Positions 36,842 to 62,288 of a DNA stretch of 64,000 nucleotides are shown here, one piece after another. Each line of letters begins with the position of its first letter. Position 1 is the first letter of the stretch. The notes below the pieces were generated by a model. That model had not been told where the DNA came from, did no database searches, and was given only the letters and a program-made list of their open reading frames with translations. This DNA comes from Desulfovibrio aminophilus. GTDB lineage: Bacteria > Desulfobacterota > Desulfovibrionia > Desulfovibrionales > Desulfovibrionaceae. Both the position numbers and the translations under genes were made by a program. The stretch spans positions 62,001 to 126,000 of the forward strand of contig NZ_JAMHGA010000043.1 of the NCBI RefSeq assembly GCF_023660105.1, written 5' to 3'.

Positions 36842-37297
36842 GTGACGGTGGAGCGCAACGCCCAGCGGCTCATGGGGGAAGGCTGGCTCTGCGCCGAGAG
36901 CGTGCTGCTGGCCGTGACCCGGGCCAAGGGACTGGAATCCCCGCTCATTCCACGCATGGCCACGGCCTTCTGCTCCGGCCTGTCGCGCACCTGCGGAGCC
37001 TGCGGGGCCGTCACCGGCGCCATCCTGGCCATCAGCCTGTTCGCGGGCCGCGACCGGCCCGAGCGGGAGCTTTTGGACCTGGCCTACGCCCCGACCCAGC
37101 ACCTCGTGGAGGGCTTCACGGCCGCCTACGGCTCCACCAACTGTTATGAGATCACGGGCTGCGACTTCCGCACTCCCGAGGGCCAGGCCCGCTACAAGGA
37201 CACGAACATGCGCGAGACCTGCGTGGAGTGCGTGGCCCTGGCCGTGCGCCTGACGCTGGAGGCCCTGGACGACGCAGGCTGCGGAGAACGGCCGTGA
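36842..37297 (+). CDS. C_GCAxxG_C_C family protein
   Basis: A 151-residue protein with the family pattern: Cys in WLCAESV (about residue 17), SRTCGACGAVTGA (about 48-60, the GCxxG core), NCYEITGCDF and a distal ETCVECV. These cysteines suggest a metal or redox role; the function of the family is not established. The start is GTG with GGAGG 7 bases upstream. It ends 4 bases into the ABM-fold gene (GTGA overlap), so the two are translationally coupled. A second family member occurs at 27015-27533. Confidence 0.85.
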   Translation: MTVERNAQRLMGEGWLCAESVLLAVTRAKGLESPLIPRMATAFCSGLSRTCGACGAVTGAILAISLFAGRDRPERELLDLAYAPTQHLVEGFTAAYGSTNCYEITGCDFRTPEGQARYKDTNMRETCVECVALAVRLTLEALDDAGCGERP

Positions 37298-37623
37298 TCG
37301 CCCGGGAGTGGAGCTGCCGCTGCCCCCGCGACCGGCGCGCGGGCTTCCTCGTCCACCTGGACCGCACCGGGGTGGAGGAGGCCCAGACCATTCCGGGCTT
37401 CCTGGGCCACCAGGTCCTGGAGCGCGACGAGCCCGGCGGGCTGGTCATCACCCTGGTCACCTACTGGGAGTCCATGGACGCCGTCCGGGCCTTCGCGGGC
37501 GATGATCCCGAGTTGGCCCGGCTCTATCCCGGCGACGAGGCCTTCGGCATCGAGTCCGAAACCGTGGTGCGCCACCGCCGGGTGCTCTCGGCCCGCTGGC
37601 CCGGCGGAACGATCCTTGCTTGA
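37294..37623 (+). CDS. Antibiotic biosynthesis monooxygenase (ABM) fold protein
   Basis: A 109-residue small protein of the dimeric alpha/beta-barrel ABM type. Recognisable parts are FLVHLDRTGVEEAQTIPGFLGHQVL and VITLVTYWESMDAVRAFAGDD, which hold the strand-helix pattern and the conserved WES(M/W)xAVRAF segment. ABM proteins are often quinol monooxygenases or heme-related, but no conserved active site can be assigned. The GTG start overlaps the upstream gene stop by 4 bases, so it is probably a partner of the C_GCAxxG_C_C protein. Confidence 0.8.
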   Translation: MIAREWSCRCPRDRRAGFLVHLDRTGVEEAQTIPGFLGHQVLERDEPGGLVITLVTYWESMDAVRAFAGDDPELARLYPGDEAFGIESETVVRHRRVLSARWPGGTILA

Positions 37624-37684
37624 CGGCTTCCGGGCGGATTGAGCCGCGGCGTTCCGTCGCGCTCCGCCAGGAAGGAAGCCGGTC

Positions 37685-37798
37685 ATGGACAGATTGCTGG
37701 GTGATGTTTCCGTTCTTTTCCAGTGTGTTGAGCGTGTCTTGCGGCGGGCCGCGCTTCGCCGGATCTCCGGCGTCAAGAAAACGCCGCGCGGGGGCTGA
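37685..37798 (+). CDS. Possible 37-residue upstream reading frame before the FkbM methyltransferase
   Basis: A short basic peptide, MDRLLGDVSVLFQCVERV followed by a stretch rich in Arg and Lys. A GGAAGGA element is about 10 bases upstream and the stop lies 2 bases before the FkbM ATG, so it could be a leader peptide or small partner gene coupled to the methyltransferase. Its codon use is less clearly coding than its neighbours. No homology is recognised. Confidence 0.35.
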   Translation: MDRLLGDVSVLFQCVERVLRRAALRRISGVKKTPRGG

Positions 37799-37800
37799 GC

Positions 37801-38505
37801 ATGGAAAAGCCAACCCGCCAGGCCAAGGTGCACCGGCTGTTGTGCATCAAGGGGTTGGTGGACAACCACCCCTATCCGGCCCTCAATGACCTGGACCGCA
37901 AGCTCATCGCCCGCCTGAACCGCCGCGACGGGTTCTTCATCGAGTGCGGGGCCAACAACGGCCACCTGCAAAGCAACACCTTCGCCCTTGAGTACCAATA
38001 CGGCTGGCGGGGCATCCTCATCGAGGCCATCCCGGACCTGGCCAGGCTCTGCGCCTTCCTGCGCCTGGGGGCCGAGGTCTACAACTGCGCCCTGGTGGCC
38101 GAGGGCTTCGCCGGGGAGACCGTGACCATGCGCTTCGCCGGGCTCAAGTCCCTGGTGCGCGGCTGCAAACAGGCCGAGGTCGAGGAACAGTGGGTGACCA
38201 GCGGAATCCGCAACGAGTCCCTGGGGGAGACCTACGCCGTGGAGGTCCACGCCCGGACGCTGAACTCCATCCTGGACGACGAGCGGCCGGAGCGGATCGA
38301 CCTCTTCTCCCTGGACGTTGAGGGTTACGAGCTGGAGGTGCTCAAGGGCCTGGACCTGGACCGCCACCGGCCGGAGTTCATCCTGGTGGAGGCCCACGAT
38401 CCCGCGGCCATCGGAAGCCACCTGGCCCCCTGGTACGACCTGGAGGCCGAGCTGACCCCTGGTTGGGATTTCCTTTACCGGGCGCGCCGTCCGCTCGGGG
38501 CCTAG
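37801..38505 (+). CDS. FkbM family methyltransferase
   Basis: A 234-residue SAM-dependent methyltransferase. The FkbM fold is visible: FFIECGANNGHLQSNT (motif I, about 41-56), WRGILIEAIPDLA (post-I), and RIDLFSLDVEGYELEVLKGLDL (about 160-181), which is the most diagnostic segment. FkbM enzymes often O-methylate sugars in surface polysaccharides or glycans. It has no signal peptide. The 3' end overlaps the convergent PEP-binding fusion gene by a CTAG. Confidence 0.85.
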   Translation: MEKPTRQAKVHRLLCIKGLVDNHPYPALNDLDRKLIARLNRRDGFFIECGANNGHLQSNTFALEYQYGWRGILIEAIPDLARLCAFLRLGAEVYNCALVAEGFAGETVTMRFAGLKSLVRGCKQAEVEEQWVTSGIRNESLGETYAVEVHARTLNSILDDERPERIDLFSLDVEGYELEVLKGLDLDRHRPEFILVEAHDPAAIGSHLAPWYDLEAELTPGWDFLYRARRPLGA

Positions 38506-41500
38506 CAGAGTTCCTTGCGGCCCGAGGCCGTCACCTGGACCAGGCCCGCGAAGCGGGTCACGGAGTCGGCCTTGGTCCAGAGCCCCACGTGGCCGCGCAC
38601 CGGCCGTCCCGCGTCGTATTCCAGCACCTTTTCCCCGTCCACGAAGCCGCGCATGCGCGGGCCCTCGACCTCCAGGGCCAGGGCGTAGGTCCGGCCCGTC
38701 TCCAGGGGCAGGTGCCGCATGGCCCGGATGAGGCGGCGGCTGTTCACGAACTCCGAGAAGACCACGTTGTTCTCCACGGCGTTGACCCGGAAGACGAAGT
38801 AGTTCCCCAGGTTGCGCAGGCCGAAGGCCAGGCCCCCGGCGCGGTCCACCACCCCGGACAGGGGCCGGACCAGGACCTCCAGGCGGCCGTCGGCCATCTC
38901 CGCGCCCTTGGCCACGGCCAGGGGGAAGTAGTGGTAGGCCCCGATGGTGTCCAGGAACTCCTGGTAGCGCGGCCCCACCAGCCGGGTCAGGAAACCGGAG
39001 ATCCCGGCGGAGATGCGCGGCATCCAGGCCGAGCCGTTCTGCTCCACCCAGGTCCGGCCGTCCTCCTCCACCCGGCTCCAGCGGCCGAGCACGGCGTGGA
39101 AGCCGGGCAGCCGGAGCGCGGTGGCCCGATCCAGGAAGTCGTAGTCCTCGTTGAAGAAGGCCTCGATCATGGGCTCCACCTGGGCCTGGCGGGAGATGGC
39201 CACGTCCAGCAGGCGGCTGGAGGCCAGGAGCCGCCCGAGCTGGTCCAGGGCCCGCTCCGTGTCCTCGGCGGGCAGGCCCTGGAGCGAGGCCTCCAGCAGC
39301 TCGCCCGAGAGGTGCACGCTGAAGCCCAGGCGCGTAAGCACCCCGGCCAGGAAGTTCACCCGCAGGGACTTGCCCAGGTAGCTGCCCGCGCCGCCCGCGA
39401 ACTGCACGGTGACGTAGTTCCCGGCCGCGTCCCCGCCGCAGATGCTGTCCACGTTGGCGAAGTGGTAGCCGAACTTGGCGTTGAAGTTGAGGTAGTCCGC
39501 GGCCAGCACGGCGAAGCTCTCGCCGCCCGGGGCGTCCGGCCCGGAGAGTCCGGCGGCCGAGGAGGCGAAGAGGGTGAAGAGGTTGCGCAGGTCCAGGTTC
39601 ACGGCCCCGGACCAGGTGATGCCCGGGTGCATGAATCCGCGCCAGACCGCGCGCATGGGCCGGGAGACGATGTCCTCCGGCCGCACGGCGTCGCAGGTGC
39701 TCAGTCCGGGCCGCAGACCGCCGCCCAGGTCCACCACCCGGATGTCCAGGGGCACCGTGGCCGTGAGCTTGGCGGCCTGGGCCCCGGAGGCCGCGCCCGA
39801 GAGGTCGAAGACCACCTTCATGACCTTTTCATGGGCGAAGCGGATCACGTCGTGCAGGGTGCGGCAGCCCTCGGGCGAGAACTCCGGGGCTTGCGGGTCC
39901 GTGAGGTGCAGGGGCGAGATGTGGTCCAGCAGGGCGCGCAGGCGGCGGTGCGCCGGGGTCTCGAAGGCCAGGGCGCGTGTCCGGGCCCGGGCCGACAGCA
40001 CCTCCTCCACCTCGCCGGGCAGGATTCGTCGGCCGTCGGCGTCCAGCGTCACCACCTCCCCATGCGGCAGGGCGGCCGTCGCTCCGGCCACGTCCACCAG
40101 GGCGGGCACCCCGAATTCGCGCAGCACCGAGGCCAGATGGCTGGCCGCGCTGCCCACCTCGGCCACCAGTCCCCGGATGCGTCCGGCCAGGGCGGCGTAG
40201 GCCGGGTTGGTGGCGCGGACCACGAGGACGGCGTTTTCCGGCAGGTCCGAGAGGTCCCGTCCGTCGGCCAGGAAGACTTGGCCCGAGGCCGCGCCGCGCG
40301 AGGCGGTCTGGCCGCCCGCCAGCAGGGGCGGCAGGTCCGGGGCCGGATCGTCGCCCGCCGTTCCGCCGGATTCCAGGCCCAGGGGGCGGCACTGCAGGAG
40401 CACCAGCCGCCCGCCCTGGTCCACGGCCCACTCCAGGTCCTGGGGACCGCCGAAGAAATGTTCCAGGGCCAGGCCGTGGCCCAGGAGTTCGGCCAGCCGC
40501 GCCTGGTCCAGCACCGGAGCCCGGCGCAGGGCGGCGGGCACGTCCTCCATGCGGGTTCCCCCGCCGGGGACGGCGGCCAGGCGGCGGTCCTTGTCCGCGA
40601 TCTCGGCGCGCAGCACCGCCCCGCTCCGGCGGTCCAGGAGGAAGGTGTCGGAGGAGACCTCGCCGCCCACCAGCGGTTCGCCCAGGCCCCAGACTCCGGC
40701 CACGCGGAAGGTCTCCGCGTCCGGCGCGCCCGGGTCGCGGGTGTAGGCCACCCCGGCGGCGGCCGCGTCGATCATTTCGATGACCGCCACGCACATGGGC
40801 GCGTCGCGGTCCTCCAGGCCGTGGCGGGTGCGGTAGAGCAGGGCGTGCGGGGTGTACTTGCTGGCGGCCACGGTCTTGTAAGCTCCGGCCAGTCCGTTTC
40901 GCTCCACGCCGAGGACCGTGGCGTACTGGCCCGCGAAGGAGGCCTCGGTGTCCTCGCCCACGGCGCTGCTGCGCACGGCCACGGGCACGCCGGGCCGGGC
41001 GCGGGCCTCCAGGGCGGCGTAGGCCGCTTCCAGGTCCCGGGCCAGCTCCGGCGGCAGGTCGGCGGCCAGGATCAGGGCCCGGATTTCGGCGCAGGCCGCG
41101 TCCACGGCCCGGGGATTCTCCAGGTCCAGGGGCTCCAGCAGGGCCGCGATCCGTTCATCGAGCCCGACGGCGGAGAGGAACAGCTCGAAGCCCCGGGACG
41201 TGATCGCGAAGCCGCGCGGAACGGGCACGCCCAGCTCGTTGCCCAGGCGCGCCAGGTTGCCCGCCTTGGCCCCGATGAAGGGAATTTGCACGGCCCCGGC
41301 GGACTCCAGGGGCAGGACCAGGGGGCAGTCCCGGGGCGGGGTGCGGGTCTCCAGGATGGAGCGGGCCTCGGCGTCGATGCGCTCCAGGGCCTGGGAGAGG
41401 GCGGCGTAGCGGCCGTGGGCCAGGGCGTTCAGGGCATCGGCCAGGTCGCGCACCGAGGCGGACAGCCCGGCGTAGAGCCTGCGCACCTGGGCCATGCCGA

Positions 41501-41663
41501 AGGGACTGCCGGAGTGGTAGACCTGCTCCAGGGCGGCCAGGGCCGAGAGGGCGTCGTAGTTGTGGGTCAGGAAGGCCCGGAAGCGGGCGTACATCTCCAC
41601 GTGCGGGCCCTCGGTCTGGGCCAGGAGACGGCAGGTCTTCTTCTTGGCGAGAAACTCGAGCAC
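38502..41663 (-). CDS. PEP/pyruvate-binding and phosphohistidine-domain protein fused to a ConA-like C-terminus
   Basis: A 1053-residue protein from the GTG at 41663 (GGAGGAC upstream). Residues 1-125 are a helical extension. Residues 128-430 are a PPDK_N ATP-grasp-type domain (GAKAGNLARLG at 131-141, AVRSSAVGEDTEASFAGQY at 229-247). Residues 450-555 are the swivelling domain with the likely phospho-histidine His509 (EVGSAASHLASVLREFG). The TIM-barrel PEP/pyruvate domain expected in PEP synthase is absent; residues 570-850 are unrecognised, and about 855-1045 resemble a concanavalin A-like/laminin-G or DUF1080-type sugar-binding fold (GLRNLGNYFVFRVN, FVDGEKVLEYDAGRPVRGHVGLWTK). It cannot act as a normal PEP synthase. 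It overlaps FkbM tail to tail by 4 bases. Confidence 0.82.
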   Translation of the reverse strand: MLEFLAKKKTCRLLAQTEGPHVEMYARFRAFLTHNYDALSALAALEQVYHSGSPFGMAQVRRLYAGLSASVRDLADALNALAHGRYAALSQALERIDAEARSILETRTPPRDCPLVLPLESAGAVQIPFIGAKAGNLARLGNELGVPVPRGFAITSRGFELFLSAVGLDERIAALLEPLDLENPRAVDAACAEIRALILAADLPPELARDLEAAYAALEARARPGVPVAVRSSAVGEDTEASFAGQYATVLGVERNGLAGAYKTVAASKYTPHALLYRTRHGLEDRDAPMCVAVIEMIDAAAAGVAYTRDPGAPDAETFRVAGVWGLGEPLVGGEVSSDTFLLDRRSGAVLRAEIADKDRRLAAVPGGGTRMEDVPAALRRAPVLDQARLAELLGHGLALEHFFGGPQDLEWAVDQGGRLVLLQCRPLGLESGGTAGDDPAPDLPPLLAGGQTASRGAASGQVFLADGRDLSDLPENAVLVVRATNPAYAALAGRIRGLVAEVGSAASHLASVLREFGVPALVDVAGATAALPHGEVVTLDADGRRILPGEVEEVLSARARTRALAFETPAHRRLRALLDHISPLHLTDPQAPEFSPEGCRTLHDVIRFAHEKVMKVVFDLSGAASGAQAAKLTATVPLDIRVVDLGGGLRPGLSTCDAVRPEDIVSRPMRAVWRGFMHPGITWSGAVNLDLRNLFTLFASSAAGLSGPDAPGGESFAVLAADYLNFNAKFGYHFANVDSICGGDAAGNYVTVQFAGGAGSYLGKSLRVNFLAGVLTRLGFSVHLSGELLEASLQGLPAEDTERALDQLGRLLASSRLLDVAISRQAQVEPMIEAFFNEDYDFLDRATALRLPGFHAVLGRWSRVEEDGRTWVEQNGSAWMPRISAGISGFLTRLVGPRYQEFLDTIGAYHYFPLAVAKGAEMADGRLEVLVRPLSGVVDRAGGLAFGLRNLGNYFVFRVNAVENNVVFSEFVNSRRLIRAMRHLPLETGRTYALALEVEGPRMRGFVDGEKVLEYDAGRPVRGHVGLWTKADSVTRFAGLVQVTASGRKELC

Positions 41664-41740: not shown

Positions 41741-43150
41741 CTAGAGTTCCGTGATCCGGCGCAGACGCTTGAGGGTCTGCTCCCGGCCGAGCACGCGCAT
41801 GGTCTCGAACAGGCCGGGGCTCACGGTGCGGCCGGTGAGGGCCACGCGCAGGGGCTGGGCCACGGCCTTGAACTTGAGGTTGCGGGCGGAGAGGAAGGCT
41901 TCGGTCATGGGCTCCATGGCGGCCTCGTCGAAGTCGCCCTCCAGGTGTTCGAGGGCGTCGGCGTACTCCTCCACCAGGGTGCGGTTCTCCGGGGTGAGGT
42001 GCTGGCGCACGGCCTTTTCGTCGAAGGCGATGAACGCCGCGTCCACCACGAAGAAGCGGGCCATCTCGGCCATCTCCACCAGGGTCTTGGCCCGGGGCTG
42101 GAGCAGCGGAACCACGGACTCCAGCAGGGCCTGGGGCGTGTCGGCCACGGCCTCGGGGCCCATCTCGCGGCCCAGGAAGTCGCGCAGCATCGCGGCCAGA
42201 CGGGCCGGGTCGGATTCCTTGATGTAGTGGGCGTTGAGCCACTCCAGCTTCTGGGTGTCGAAGACCGCCGGGGAGTTGCCCAGGTTCTCGGCGCCGAAGC
42301 AAGCCGCCAGCTCGTCGCGGGAGAAGATTTCCTGGTCGCCGTGGGACCAGCCCAGGCGGGCCAGGTAGTTGATCACGGCCTCGGGCAGGTAGCCCATCTT
42401 CTCGTATTCCATGACCGAGAGCGCACCGTGGCGCTTGGAGAGCTTCTTCTTGTCCGGGCCGAGGATCATGGGCACGTGGCCGAACTCGGGCACGTCCCAG
42501 CCCAGGGCGCGGTAGATGAGAATCTGGCGCGGGGTGTTGTTCACGTGGTCGTCGCCGCGCAGCACGTGGGTCACGCCCATGTCGTGGTCGTCCACCACCA
42601 CGGCCAGGTTGTATGTCGGCGAGCCGTCGGAGCGGCGCAGGATCATGTCGTCCAGCTCCTCGCAGGCCACGGCGATGGAGCCCTTGACCATGTCCTTGTA
42701 GGCCACGGAGCCGTCCAGCGGGGTCTTCATGCGCACCACGCGGCCCTCGCCCGGGCCCAGGCCGCGTTCGCGGCAGGAGCCGTCGTACTTGGGCTTGCGG
42801 CCCTCGGCGCGGGCCTTCTCGCGCATGGCCTCCACCTGCTCCTTGGTGCAGTCGCACCAGTAGGCCTGCCCAAGGGCCACGAGCTGGTCGATGACCTCGT
42901 TGTGGCGCGCGGCGCGGGCCTGCTGGTAGACGATCTCGCCGTCCGAGGAGAGGTCCAGCCAGCGCATGGAGTCGAGGATGGCCTGGGTGGCCTCGGGCGT
43001 GGAGCGTTCGAGGTCCGTGTCCTCGATGCGCAGGAGGAAGCGGCCGCCGCTATGGCGGGCCAGCAGCCAGGAAAACAGGGCGGTGCGCGCCCCGCCGATG
43101 TGCAGGTAGCCCGTGGGGCTGGGGGCGAAGCGGGTGACGATCTGGCTCAT
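41741..43150 (-). CDS. gltX: Glutamyl-tRNA synthetase
   Basis: A 469-residue class I synthetase of normal length. The HIGH motif appears as PSPTGYLHIGGARTA (about 10-24), LLRIEDTDLERS follows, and the KMSKS-type motif is KKLSKRHGA (about 243-251). It charges tRNA-Glu, and in some bacteria tRNA-Gln. I chose the ATG at 43150 because AGGAG (overlapping the NifU-like stop) lies upstream; the in-frame residues before it are not conserved. Confidence 0.97.
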   Translation of the reverse strand: MSQIVTRFAPSPTGYLHIGGARTALFSWLLARHSGGRFLLRIEDTDLERSTPEATQAILDSMRWLDLSSDGEIVYQQARAARHNEVIDQLVALGQAYWCDCTKEQVEAMREKARAEGRKPKYDGSCRERGLGPGEGRVVRMKTPLDGSVAYKDMVKGSIAVACEELDDMILRRSDGSPTYNLAVVVDDHDMGVTHVLRGDDHVNNTPRQILIYRALGWDVPEFGHVPMILGPDKKKLSKRHGALSVMEYEKMGYLPEAVINYLARLGWSHGDQEIFSRDELAACFGAENLGNSPAVFDTQKLEWLNAHYIKESDPARLAAMLRDFLGREMGPEAVADTPQALLESVVPLLQPRAKTLVEMAEMARFFVVDAAFIAFDEKAVRQHLTPENRTLVEEYADALEHLEGDFDEAAMEPMTEAFLSARNLKFKAVAQPLRVALTGRTVSPGLFETMRVLGREQTLKRLRRITEL

Positions 43151-43158
43151 TGCGGCTC

Positions 43159-43383
43159 CTAGTCCACGGCCTCGACGCACTTCACGGCCGGGACCTCCTT
43201 GAGGATGACCCGCTCCACGCCGTGCTTGAGCGTCATGCGGGACATGGGGCAGCCCTTGCAGGCGCCCTGCAGGCGGACCTTGACCACGCCCTCGGGGGTG
43301 ATCTCGACCAGTTCGATGTCGCCGCCGTCGTTCTGCAGAACGGGACGGATCTTGGCGATGGCGGCGAGCACTTGTTCGCGCAT
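43159..43383 (-). CDS. NifU-like iron-sulfur scaffold domain protein
   Basis: A 74-residue stand-alone NifU C-terminal-type domain. It starts MREQVLAAIAKIRPVLQNDGGDIELVEI, the classic sequence, and has the cluster-binding CxxC in GACKGCPMSRMTL (Cys about 44 and 47). It is a scaffold or carrier for iron-sulfur cluster assembly. GGAGG precedes the ATG at 43383. It is followed by gltX with an 8-base gap. A consensus -35 lies upstream. Confidence 0.93.
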   Translation of the reverse strand: MREQVLAAIAKIRPVLQNDGGDIELVEITPEGVVKVRLQGACKGCPMSRMTLKHGVERVILKEVPAVKCVEAVD

Positions 43384-43414
43384 GACGTACCTCCGGGTCG
43401 GTTGTGGGGGCTTT

Positions 43415-43443
43415 GAAGTAGCGGTCCGGCGCGTTCTTGTCAA
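43415..43443 (-). promoter_or_regulatory. Candidate promoter of the nifU-like-gltX unit
   Basis: On the minus strand TTGACA (43438-43443), a 17-base spacer, then TACTTC (43415-43420), about 32 bases upstream of the NifU-like ATG. The -35 is perfect, the -10 weak. Confidence 0.4.
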
Positions 43444-43449
43444 ACGCGC

Positions 43450-44819
<1,370 letters not shown>

Positions 44820-44823
<4 letters not shown>

Positions 44824-46604
44824 TTGGTCTCCGTGGTTTCGGCGGCGGGCGACGGATCGGGGAAGAAGAGCCGCACGCTCGTCCCCCGGCCGGGCTCGGA
44901 CTCGATGAGCACCTTGCCCTTGTGCCCGCGCATGATGGTCTGGACGATGGCCAGTCCGAGGCCGGTGCCCTGGGTCTTGGCCGTGAAGAAGGGCTCCAGG
45001 GCCTGGCGGCGGACGTCCTCGGGCATGCCCGGGCCGTTGTCCGTGACCGCGACCCAGACCCCGCCGCCGTTGCGGCGCGAGGAGATTTCGATGCACCCGC
45101 CTTCCTCGCCGAGGGCCTCCAGGCTGTTCACCGCCAGGTTGAGCAGCACCTGCCGCAGGGCGTCCGGGTCGGCGTGGACCGCCGGGGCCTCCAGCGCCAG
45201 GGCGGTGGCCACGCGCTTGTGCTCCAGGTCGAGCTTGAGCAGGTCGAAGAGCGCGGCCCCGGCCCGGTCCAGGTCGATGTCCGCCGGAGCCAGCTCCCTG
45301 GGCCTGGCCAGGAAGAGCAGGTCCGTGACCACGCGATTCAGGCGGTCGGCCTCCTGGACCATGGTGGCGGCATAGGAATCCAGGGGCTTCTGGCCCTTGA
45401 GCTTGTCGGCGAAGAGCTGGGCGAAGCCGCGCAGGGAGCTCAGGGGATTGCGCACCTCGTGGGCCACGCCCGCGGCCAGGGAGCCGATGGCGGCCAGTCG
45501 GCGGGCCTCGTTGAGGTCCTCCTCCAGGGCCCGGATTTCGGTGCGGTCGCGGATGAGCACGAGGCGGTCCGGCGCGCCCTTTTCCTCCTCGGCGTTCTGG
45601 TAAGGCAGCACGAGGACTTCCAGGAGCTGGCCCTGGTAGTCGTGCTGCCGCCACTCCGGGCGGCCGTGCCCGGCGGGGAAGGGAAATTCGGACCAGTTGC
45701 GCCCGGCCAGACAGGCCGCGTCCTTGCAGTCCTCGCTGCACAGCAGGCGCACGGCCGAGCCGTTGGCGGCCAGGATTTCGCCGTCGCTGCCCAGGGTCAC
45801 CAGGCCGTCGGGCATGTGGTCCAGGAGCTTGGACTGGAACTGCTCCAGGCGCACGAGCTTCTGGGCCTGCTCGCGGCGGCGGAGGTAGGCGAAGGCCAGG
45901 GACCAGAGCACCACGGCGGCCAGGAGCACGTAGCCGGTCTGGATCAGGGCCGCGCGGCGGTACTGGTTGAACTGGGCCAGGTGGCGCTCGGCGTTCAGGC
46001 CCACCACGAGGTAGACCGGCGGGGCCTCGCCGCCCTGCCGGCGGCCCATGCCCATGCCGCCGCGCCCGCGGCCCGGGTCAAGCGGGCCCGCGTCGTCGTG
46101 CGGATGTCCGGCGAAATTGCAGAACATGGAGAGGCCCGGACGGGCCTGGAGCCCGGAGAGCAGGACGCGCTTGTGGCCGATGAGCGCCAAGCCGAACCAG
46201 ACGCCGTCGCGCTCCAGCGATTCCATGGCTTCGGCGGGCAGGCCGGGCTTGGATTCCTCGGGGTCCGCGCCGGAGGAGATGAGCAGTTCGCCTTGCGCGC
46301 CGTAGATTCCGGCGAAGGCGATGTCCTCGGAGGCGGCCAGTTCCTGGAGCATCTCCTTGATCAGGGAGCGGGCGGCCCCGGCCATGTTCGGGCTCCGGCC
46401 CAGGCCGCGCATGGCCCGGGAGAGGTTGGCCTCCACGCCGGAGAGGATGGCCCGGCCGGAGAGGACCATGTGCTCGTCCACGATCCGCCGCTGGCGTTCG
46501 ATGCTCTGCCAGGTCAGGAAGAGGCTGCCCAGGCCCAGGATGATGAGGGCCAGGACCGCGGCCACGATGGGCCCCTGCTCCTTGTTCGACTGACGGATTT
46601 CCAT
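44820..46604 (-). CDS. zraS: Sensor histidine kinase, ZraS-like
   Basis: A 594-residue membrane kinase. TM1 is at about 13-31, a periplasmic domain of about 185 residues follows, and TM2 is at about 223-241. A PAS domain (about 250-355) precedes HisKA with His382 in AAGVAHEVRNPLSSLRGF, then HATPase_c with NSLEALGEEGG, DNGPGMP and GTGLGLAIV. The periplasmic domain holds a Gly/Met/Arg-rich insert (GRGRGGMGMGRR, about 178-189) that echoes the low-complexity tail of the ZraP-like protein. The start is ATG 46604 with weak GGAAC; an upstream in-frame ATG lies 10 codons earlier. It phosphorylates the adjacent ZraR-like regulator. Confidence 0.92.
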
Positions 46605-46677
46605 GCCTGTTCCGGGTTCCGGCGGCCCGAGCATGCGCGGCCGGAAGCGTTTTCGTCAACCCCCGGGGACGCGGACA

Positions 46678-46708
46678 GGGGCGGCCCGGGACCATCCCGA
46701 ACCGCCCC
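46678..46708 (-). promoter_or_regulatory. Hairpin between zraP and zraS
   Basis: GGGGCGG/CCGCCCC with an inner CGGGA/TCCCG pairing forms a long stem in the 137-base gap, with no U-tract. It may limit read-through from the highly expressed zraP gene into the kinase-regulator pair. Confidence 0.4.
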
Positions 46709-46741
46709 GCGCGTTCCCGGTATTCCAGTTGAAAGAACCTT

Positions 46742-47215
46742 CTAGTAAGCGCCGCAGCCGCCCGCGCCGGGACAGCCGCCATAACCGGGACAACCGCCCG
46801 GCCCGTAACCCATGCCCATGCCCGGGCCGAAGCCGCCGCCGGGGCCGAACTTCACGCCGGTCTCCTTGGAGAGGTCGGCGGCCAGGGCTTGGCGCTCCTG
46901 CTCCAGCTGCTGCCGGATCTTGGACATCTCGCCCACCAGGGACTCGATGTCGGCCTTCTCGGCCTTGCCCGAGGCGGTCAGGGCGTCCAGCTCGGTGTCC
47001 TTGGCCCAGTACTGCTCGCGCAGTTCGAAGATCTTCTTGTGGTGTTTCTCGAAGATCTTGTCCACGGCGGCCTGTTTCTCCGGGGTCAGCCCGGCGTACA
47101 GGGAACCCATGCCGCCGCCCGGACCGCGCCCCTGGCCCGGACCGGCGAAGGCCACGGCCGAGAGGGCCAGCAGGGCGGCCAGGGTTGCGGCCGCCAAAAC
47201 GGAACGTTTGCTCAT
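46742..47215 (-). CDS. zraP: ZraP-like periplasmic chaperone/zinc-resistance-associated protein
   Basis: A 157-residue exported protein with a Sec signal (residues 1-24, cleavage after AFA). The mature part has the Spy/CpxP/ZraP-type helical core (LTPEKQAAVDKIFEKHHKKIFELREQYWAKDTEL) and a C-terminal low-complexity tail rich in Gly, Pro and Cys (GPGGCPGYGGCPGAGGCGAY); in E. coli ZraP the metal-binding residues are mainly His. The start at 47215 (MSKRS) is preferred over an ATG six bases upstream because GGAGG then has a 7-base spacer instead of 1. It is the first gene of the zraP-zraS-zraR unit and is likely the main target of that system. Confidence 0.88.
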   Translation of the reverse strand: MSKRSVLAAATLAALLALSAVAFAGPGQGRGPGGGMGSLYAGLTPEKQAAVDKIFEKHHKKIFELREQYWAKDTELDALTASGKAEKADIESLVGEMSKIRQQLEQERQALAADLSKETGVKFGPGGGFGPGMGMGYGPGGCPGYGGCPGAGGCGAY

Positions 47216-60840: not shown

Positions 60841-62288
60841 CCCAGGACCTCCCGGATGGCGCGGCGCACGGCCTCCACGTCGCTGAAGGGCAGTTTCCGG
60901 CCGCCCACCTGCTGGTAGGTCTCGTGTCCCTTGCCCGCCACCAGCAGCACGTCGCCCGGCCGCATGATCCCGACGGCCTTGCACAGGGCCCGGTAGCGGT
61001 CCGGGTCCTCGACGGTCTCGATCGTCCGGCCGCCCTGGGACAACCCGGGCCGGGCGTCGTCCATGATGGCCAGGGGATCCTCGAAGCGCGGGTTGTCCGA
61101 GGTGAGCACGGCCACGTCGGCATACTCGGCCACGGCCTTGGCCATGAGCGGCCGCTTGCTCCGGTCGCGGTTGCCGCCGCAGCCGAAGACCGTGATGAGC
61201 CGGTCGAAGTCCAGGGCCCGCAGGGTCTTCTGCACGTTCACCAGGGCGTCGGGGGTGTGGGCGTAGTCCACGAACACGGGCAGGCCGCGGTCGTTGTCCA
61301 CGCGCTCCAGGCGGCCGGGCACGCCCTTGAACTCGGAGAGGCGGCGGACCTCCTTGCAGGACAGGCCCAGGGAGAGGCAGGCGGCCTGGGCGGCCAGGAG
61401 GTTCTGGGCGTTGTGCGCGCCCACCAGCGGGGAGTCCAACTCCCAGGTCTTGCCCTTGTAGGACATGCGCAGGCGCAGGCCCTTGCCCGTGCAGGACAGG
61501 ATGGTCCCGGCCAGGGACGTGTCGCCCAGGGGCGCGTCGGTCAGGCCGTAGCCCAGGGACGGGTGCGTGTCGGCCAGCAGGCGGCGGCCGTAGGGGTCGT
61601 CCCAGTTGAGCACGCAGCGCTTGTCCGGCCGGGGGCACTCGTGAAAAAGTCTAGACTTGGCGCGGAAATACGTTTCCATATCCCCGTGGTAATCCAGATG
61701 GTCCTGGGTCACGTTGGTCAGCACGGCCGCGTCGAATTCCAGGCCCGCCACGCGGTTCTGGTCCAGGGCGTGGGAGGAGACCTCCATCACCGCCACGTCC
61801 ACGTCGCTCTTCTCCATGTTGGCGAAGAGCTCGTGGAGCTGCCAGCAGCCCGGGGTGGTCAGGGAGGCGTCCAGGCTGAAGCCCGGCCAGCGGTAGGCCA
61901 CGGTGCCCAGCAGGCCGACCTTGAGCCCCGCCGAGGCCAGGATGTGCTCGATGAGGTAGCTCGTGGTGGTCTTGCCGTTGGTGCCGGTGACGCCGATGAT
62001 CTTCATCACGGCCTGGCCGGTCTTGAAGTAGGCCTTGGCCAGTTCGCCCAGGGCCTCGGGGGCGTCCGGGCGCTCGATGAGCGCGGCCCCGCCCAGGACC
62101 TCGGGGGCCACGGGGCCGTCGGCCACCACGAATTCCGCGCCCCGGGCCACGGCGTCGGCGATGAAGCCGTCGCGCTTGTCCCCGGCGGCGGGCATGGCCG
62201 CGAAGACCTCGCCCGGGGTGATCAGCCGCGAATCCGTGCGGACCATGAGTCCCGCGCGGACGCGGTCCAGAAGTTCAAGCCAGCTCAT
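60837..62288 (-). CDS. murE: UDP-N-acetylmuramoyl-L-alanyl-D-glutamate-2,6-diaminopimelate ligase
   Basis: A 483-residue Mur ligase. [17 protein letters not shown] is the UDP domain, [19 protein letters not shown] the ATP loop, and DNPR in [10 protein letters not shown] (about 406) marks use of meso-diaminopimelate rather than lysine. It adds the third residue of the stem peptide. I chose the ATG at 62288 ([10 protein letters not shown]); upstream in-frame residues are not conserved. It lies 37 bases after the ftsI stop. Confidence 0.96.

Follow-up and report, generated by a model that had tools for sequence, protein, structure and literature searches.

Dikinases of the phosphoenolpyruvate (PEP) synthase type combine an ATP-grasp domain with a swivelling domain whose histidine takes up phosphate. 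In PEP synthase itself (pyruvate, water dikinase; family model TIGR01418) the two are accompanied by a PEP/pyruvate barrel. Rifampin phosphotransferase (RPH) and the two-component phenolic dikinases HpeHI, CreHI and PpsAB use the same pair with a swapped acceptor domain (PMC4844700, PMC12167813). VadK (Rv1127c), derived from pyruvate phosphate dikinase (PPDK) and devoid of the pyruvate domain, autophosphorylates and regulates the methylcitrate cycle (PMC13400623); a dikinase that lacks the pyruvate site can thus act as a regulatory kinase. Here we describe a dikinase-like protein of 1053 amino acids from Desulfovibrio aminophilus, encoded at 38502..41663 on the minus strand of a 64,000-nucleotide stretch (positions 62,001 to 126,000 of contig NZ_JAMHGA010000043.1, assembly GCF_023660105.1), hereafter the window. 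Its ATP and phosphohistidine domains are intact; a conserved domain of about 300 residues, which we call X, stands in place of the barrel, and a ConA-like domain closes the chain. We propose with moderate confidence that it belongs to a PEP-synthase-derived family of regulatory phosphotransferases, in which phosphate would pass from ATP to histidine and on to an X-bound target, with a phosphatase opposing the transfer in one group.

Domain architecture of the dikinase-like protein

The open reading frame (P0001, stop codon included in its coordinates) begins with a GTG at 41663, just downstream of a GGAGG site and consistent with the start region of the related locus L003. Relatives 43-48% identical across nearly the full length are encoded in loci L001, L002 and L004, and the frame with its domain set is therefore more than a chance arrangement. 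An N-terminal helical region (residues 1-112; 41328..41663, minus strand, like all parts of the protein given below), common across the family and without a Pfam match, precedes the ATP-grasp domain PPDK_N (residues 113-430; 40374..41327), delimited by Pfam, model and alignment. The swivelling phosphohistidine domain PEP-utilizers (residues 440-552; 40008..40346) was placed by Pfam and model. In a Pfam scan with E-values up to 1, these two are the sole domains above cut-off (PPDK_N at 129-430, 2.3e-80; PEP-utilizers at 475-543, 4e-16), about 45 residues apart in sequence, and a DUF2274 match of 0.17 remains below threshold. Unlike a two-component phosphorelay, the protein has no HisKA/HATPase or receiver domain by Pfam; such genes only adjoin its relatives.

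All 62 aligned members share K133, R231, E411, Q424, R426 and H509, which we take to be the counterparts of the catalytic residues of PPDK and PEP synthase. By alignment, H509 (codon at 40137..40139) is the presumed phosphate carrier. An earlier note, made by a model from the letters and a list of open reading frames, had read PPDK_N and a swivelling domain with His509 in this gene, as the Pfam matches and the invariant histidine confirm.

AlphaFold2 models were built from 18 and 19 sequences, with mean predicted local distance difference test (pLDDT) values of 73 and 78. Residues 114-551 of the full model superpose on PEP synthase 2ols with a Z-score of 38.6 and a root-mean-square deviation (rmsd) of 5.1 over 384 residues. 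TIGR01418, among the closest family models, scores 263 bits (cut-off 739.75), with a match that spans the first 449 of 784 profile positions; the PPDK model TIGR01828 reaches 37.7 bits, which marks the protein as PEP-synthase-like. The order of the shared domains is that of PEP synthase, from which the window protein differs in lacking, by sequence, the barrel and in its added N-terminal region, X and ConA-like domain. VadK, in contrast, is PPDK-derived and simply truncated, whereas here X stands in the barrel's place. The RPH model NF041857 gives 222.7 bits (cut-off 999). RPH carries its acceptor domain between an ATP-grasp and a C-terminal histidine domain (PMC4844700), whereas X comes after the histidine domain; membership of RPH is ruled out by this order, by the NF041857 score and by the comparison of X with the RIF-type domain given below.

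A conserved domain in place of the pyruvate barrel

X covers residues 553-850 (39114..40007) and has no recognised family. The missing barrel and the unrecognised stretch in its place had both been pointed out in the earlier note, and both stand. PEP-utilizers_C (PF02896) is absent from the window protein by Pfam (E up to 1), and two separate PF02896 proteins are encoded elsewhere in the genome. The window's own X segment has no Pfam match, and those of 40 homologues yield scattered weak ones, the best at E 0.017 and each in at most 2 of the 40. Compared with PDB sequences, X returned a single match, 2dcl at E 0.09, which was taken as chance.

Profile comparison with hhalign gives the same picture. 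Against PtsI (12 sequences), PPDK-length proteins (3) and long PF02896 proteins (6, not named by family scan), X reaches probabilities of 0.1-0.6%; the swivelling domain reaches 97.6-98.5% with the same sets. Controls among the barrel sets lie at 99.1-100%, the comparison of PtsI with the long proteins (99.1%) being the only one confined to the barrel. With RPH-like proteins X scores 0.1-0.3%, and 0.1% with the RIF-type domain, compared to 99.3% for the swivelling domain. A degenerate barrel in residues 570-1053, the finding that the earlier note named as turning the protein into an ordinary PEP synthase relative, was seen neither by profile nor by Pfam and is rejected on these grounds.

In the model, X consists of helices, strands, two helices, a four-strand meander, a helix, two strands and two helices, and at moderate confidence shows no barrel-like alternation of strands and helices. 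No match in a viral structure list could be assigned to it. Ten of its residues (C600, H604, D605, R608, H611, E612, D645, H734, R768 and D820) are kept at 97-100% in 62 sequences; the first six make up a motif, C600-x3-H604-D605-x2-R608-x2-H611-E612, at 39828..39866, each at 97% or above. Among 20 sequences of the ConA group, mean pairwise identity is highest in X (0.53), ahead of the swivelling (0.52), ATP-grasp (0.50), ConA (0.45) and N-terminal (0.33) regions. Such constraint gives X the look of an active or binding site. With the barrel absent by sequence, conserved X in its place and a ConA tail following, an acceptor other than pyruvate is likely.

The ConA-like tail

The C-terminal domain (residues 853-1053; 38505..39107), assigned by fold and sequence-profile match, is the sugar-binding-like region of the earlier reading. 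Residues 853-1047 adopt a ConA-type fold, with the CBM66 module of Bacillus levanase as the best PDB match (VIA Z 24.1, rmsd 1.8, 156 aligned residues); in the full model, residues 853-1048 match it at Z 24.1 and rmsd 2.0 over 157 residues. The likeness to the Bacillus subtilis module (4azz) extends to the beta-sandwich fold at 22% identity, and to its sequence profile at E 3e-8. The two differ in that the window protein has no export signal by hydropathy: the best 19-residue mean in its first 60 residues is 0.59, and the maximum of the whole protein, 1.66, is located within the ATP-grasp domain. By Pfam, ConA members match lectin-type and 3-keto-disaccharide hydrolase families.

Among 20 closer relatives, the window's own genome included, a ConA domain occurs in five genomes (G000, G399, G400, G408 and G411), in each of which, to the extent that the contigs allow, it is fused to X; G412 has a weak partial match. 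A separate 202-residue ConA-like protein, the second match in G408, lies directly 3' of a ConA-fused member (L149 7757-8365).

Distribution and phylogeny

A search of 395 genomes sampled from the phylum found X in 146, often in multiple copies, the copy numbers from this search being lower bounds. Five copies were counted in the window's genome and nine in G040. In-frame stops inside several matches were taken as protein ends read through, not each of them checked. Most open frames among the matches listed, at about 830-970 codons, leave no room for a ConA domain. At least 19 of the 395 genomes, counting the window's own, encode the ConA-fused form, with alignments that extend to the end of the ConA domain. 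X was absent from the three genomes that hold loci L011, L014 and L018, and none was found in plasmid and phage collections; in the phylum of G418, labelled Chloroflexi, one of 101 genomes has it, in two copies.

In a tree of 66 members, the window protein among them, 24 ConA-fused proteins fall on one side of a branch with an SH-aLRT support of 100. They join a group of 12 members linked to phosphatases of the dual-specificity type (DSP; the DSP group, support 100) at support 98, with the 30 others, including a set linked to two-component and TauE genes, opposite. The tree was made with a quick method and midpoint-rooted for drawing only; an earlier tree of 62 rows, from which the window protein and three ConA members were absent, gave the same groups.

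No description of the family was found in the literature searched, and a limited term look-up in a two-component map of Desulfovibrio vulgaris (PMC3333781) returned nothing of the kind. Ddes_1644 (annotated 'pyruvate phosphate dikinase'), whose number adjoins that of a sigma-54 gene and which, like that gene, is lower under NO (PMC5701242), may be a member.

Recurrent neighbours of the family

Genes were called with a codon-usage script and neighbours labelled by BLAST; to check the label types on representatives, we ran Pfam on 25 neighbour or fusion proteins, of which one (L060 9656-10471) gave no match. We counted 42 short members, leaving out a PtsI-type protein (L089, 602 residues) and a ConA-group gene truncated at the edge of its contig (L075, 795 residues). 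Within three genes, 35 of the 42 have a gene of histidine kinase, receiver or sigma-54 type by BLAST label. Counted one by one over the same distance, histidine kinases accompany 23 members, receivers 22, another member of the family 16, TauE permeases 14, sigma-54 type genes 12, DSP-type phosphatases 10, PF09608 proteins 7, calcineurin-type phosphatases 5, PhnD-type binding proteins 4 and UspA-like proteins 3. All four short paralogues of the window's genome have a signalling gene of one of these types (kinase, receiver or sigma-54) within three genes.

Phosphatase pairing is complete in the DSP group. Ten of its 12 members have the phosphatase gene within three genes, L088 four genes off, and in L093 (7028-10792) a single protein of 1254 residues carries PPDK_N, PEP-utilizers, X and, at its C-terminus, the phosphatase domain. 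Partner or fused domains belong to the DSP-type families PF22785, PF22784 and PF00782; the window protein has none. A search for homologues of the partner gave 29 rows, of which the 8 strongest (7 genes) were counted as full-length and the other 21 are partial; all seven full-length genes, in 21 genomes, directly adjoin an X gene. The C-terminal half of the partner is cysteine-rich, resembling a YkgJ-type cluster, and contains no carbohydrate module recognised by Pfam. In L081 (7517-8632) and relatives this half also matches separate proteins, such as G000:C21:11875-12303 and G000:C43:56098-56517.

The ConA group has other company. Three genes or fewer from its 19 members we counted ChrA 3 times, ChrB 3, MFS 2, kinases 2, sigma-54 type genes 2, DSP-type phosphatases 1 and FkbM 0; MFS genes missed by label adjoin the members of L064 and L077, and ChrA-like neighbours were seen by eye in L147 and L149. 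The tie to signalling, strong in the other groups, is weak in the ConA group, which keeps company more often with transport genes. The proximity of ConA-fused genes to ChrA-type, ChrB and/or MFS transporters (L069, L075, L076, L078, and also L064, L077, L147 and L149) suggests a tie to oxyanion transport.

L006, L008, L009 and L010 each hold at least three X-family genes in what looks like an operon, along with a receiver, a sensor kinase and a PF09608-type protein. TauE is part of this set in L006, L009 and L010, and in L008 one copy of X is split into two open frames.

PADLOC-DB (E 0.01) returned no match for the window protein, its FkbM neighbour, one short paralogue or that paralogue's DSP-type partner, and an anti-phage defence protein was set aside.

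Proposed mechanism and alternative readings

ATP would bind the ATP-grasp domain, and His509 would take the phosphate with release of AMP and inorganic phosphate, as in PEP synthase. As the ATP site and His509 are intact, this first half-reaction is expected, judging by the conserved residues and by PEP synthase, PPDK and RPH (PMC4844700). The swivelling domain would then swing to X; standing where PEP synthase holds pyruvate, X should hold the acceptor, and would present one other than pyruvate. That a phosphatase is paired with or fused to family members suggests removal of the phosphate from the product, as happens in signalling or in reversible modification. The likely role would be the reversible phosphorylation of a protein or signalling molecule, undone by the DSP-type phosphatase. 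In the ConA group the CBM66-like domain occupies the C-terminal place held by the phosphatase in the one fused member, and would bind a ligand or target there.

Given recurrent partners of three kinds (two-component genes, a fused or adjacent phosphatase, anion-transport genes), a regulatory role is the most likely, and the same partners indicate regulation rather than a glycan. VadK derives from PPDK and the X family is PEP-synthase-like, and so the route to regulation would be independent. More tentatively, we suggest that these could be the parts of a new phospho-signalling system, possibly one in which PEP-synthase-derived regulatory kinases act via a novel domain for the acceptor, have their effect undone by a dedicated DSP-type phosphatase with a cysteine-rich tail and answer two-component sensors and anion-binding or transport proteins, and which is expanded to several copies per genome in sulfate reducers and their relatives.

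Several points weigh against the regulatory reading. To our knowledge, no biochemistry exists for any family member. Confidence in the model of X is moderate, low at 621-630 and 681-710, and both PDB fold lists were taken up by matches of the ConA and ATP-grasp/swivelling parts, none identifying the fold of X. Signalling neighbours are rare in the ConA group itself (histidine kinase 2, sigma-54 2 and DSP 1 of 19), and the nearest two-component genes in the window lie two genes away and may be unrelated. The loci were hand-chosen, some being near copies (L006, L009 and L010; L067 and L068), and the neighbour counts are raw, without a matched background, for genes such as histidine kinases and receivers that are common anyway. 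Recurrent partners of this sort would equally fit a metabolic enzyme under two-component control.

The main rival is a small-molecule dikinase akin to RPH or the phenol kinases, in which X binds a metabolite, perhaps sulfur- or anion-linked, that is phosphorylated via the histidine, the two-component genes controlling expression only. We hold this to be rather unlikely, even though other dikinases with swapped acceptors use small molecules (RPH, PMC4844700; HpeHI/PpsAB, PMC12167813; Pas alpha/beta, PMC7500099) and anion-transport genes recur here (within three genes, TauE for 14 and PhnD-type proteins for 4 of the 42 short members, ChrA for 3 of the 19 ConA members). The tight pairing with a DSP-type phosphatase, including one fusion, and the several paralogues per genome speak against it, and no recurrent catabolic gene was noticed by eye in the gene lists, where most neighbours are unannotated. 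A scaffold or sensor that keeps the fold and transfers nothing to an acceptor would agree with the fact that no acceptor is known; we regard it as very unlikely. Least probable of all, to a degree that makes us nearly dismiss it, is an ordinary PEP synthase relative with a barrel diverged past recognition. Its ATP and swivelling half does score with TIGR01418, and automatic annotation may name it PEP synthase; the missed cut-off, the match ending at profile position 449, the hhalign contrast with the barrel-only control, the meander modelled at moderate confidence and the two separate PF02896 proteins of the genome all oppose this.

Plants pair glucan water dikinase with phosphatases of the laforin/SEX4 type, and the window protein could be sought among their bacterial counterparts, with X or the CBM66-like domain binding an intracellular glycan that is reversibly phosphorylated. 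The CBM66-like domain, the Pfam matches of ConA members to carbohydrate-related families and the DSP-type partner in the neighbouring tree group would suit such a role, as would the rmlC/rmlD- and Wzt-like genes that follow the ConA gene in L064 and the epimerase-like genes of L074, L076 and L149, all noted by eye. A ConA domain would not fit in most listed members, however, the cysteine-rich half of the phosphatase is not recognised as a carbohydrate module, FkbM is not conserved and no export signal appears by hydropathy; we consider glycan phosphorylation improbable. Of the earlier note's suggestion of a new phosphotransfer target, perhaps a glycan, the first part thus survives as a likely non-pyruvate acceptor; the glycan is unsupported, given FkbM, the lack of room for ConA in most members and the missing export signal.

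As for the preferred regulatory reading, the family is easily mistaken for PEP synthase though it lacks the pyruvate site, and proteins present in 146 of the 395 genomes sampled would pass from the metabolic models to the candidate signalling systems. With a conserved X motif, a kinase-phosphatase fusion and compact operons at hand, the identity of the target can be tested directly.

The FkbM gene and the surroundings of the locus

The FkbM methyltransferase gene (37801-38505, plus strand) meets the dikinase-like gene tail to tail with a 4-nucleotide overlap, so the boundary described in the earlier note is real. The pair is not conserved in relatives: FkbM occurs in none of 20 related loci (19 distinct, L071 being a copy of L001 and left out), and no match was found in the same-genus genomes G399 and G400 (the latter 87% complete), although both retain the ConA-fused gene along with the gene next to it on the 3' side. 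FkbM as a functional partner is ruled out by these absences, and because it is missing from G399 and G400 the glycan argument drawn from it falls. The pairing is a local event in the window's genome, a species-level insertion or the outcome of losses. FkbM and a small gene encoding 109 residues (37294-38505) sit between the ConA-fused gene and a 151-residue gene; at L145 and L146, two loci of the same genus, FkbM is missing and the ConA-fused gene adjoins the counterpart of the 151-residue gene.

Upstream, gltX (41741..43150, minus strand), identified by eye and given for context, holds the same place in L145 at 95.9% identity and is found in pieces in L003. Together with NifU-like, sigma-54 response regulator, sensor kinase and ZraP-like genes, also labelled by eye, it forms a minus-strand series at 41741-47197, the order of which is kept in L145.

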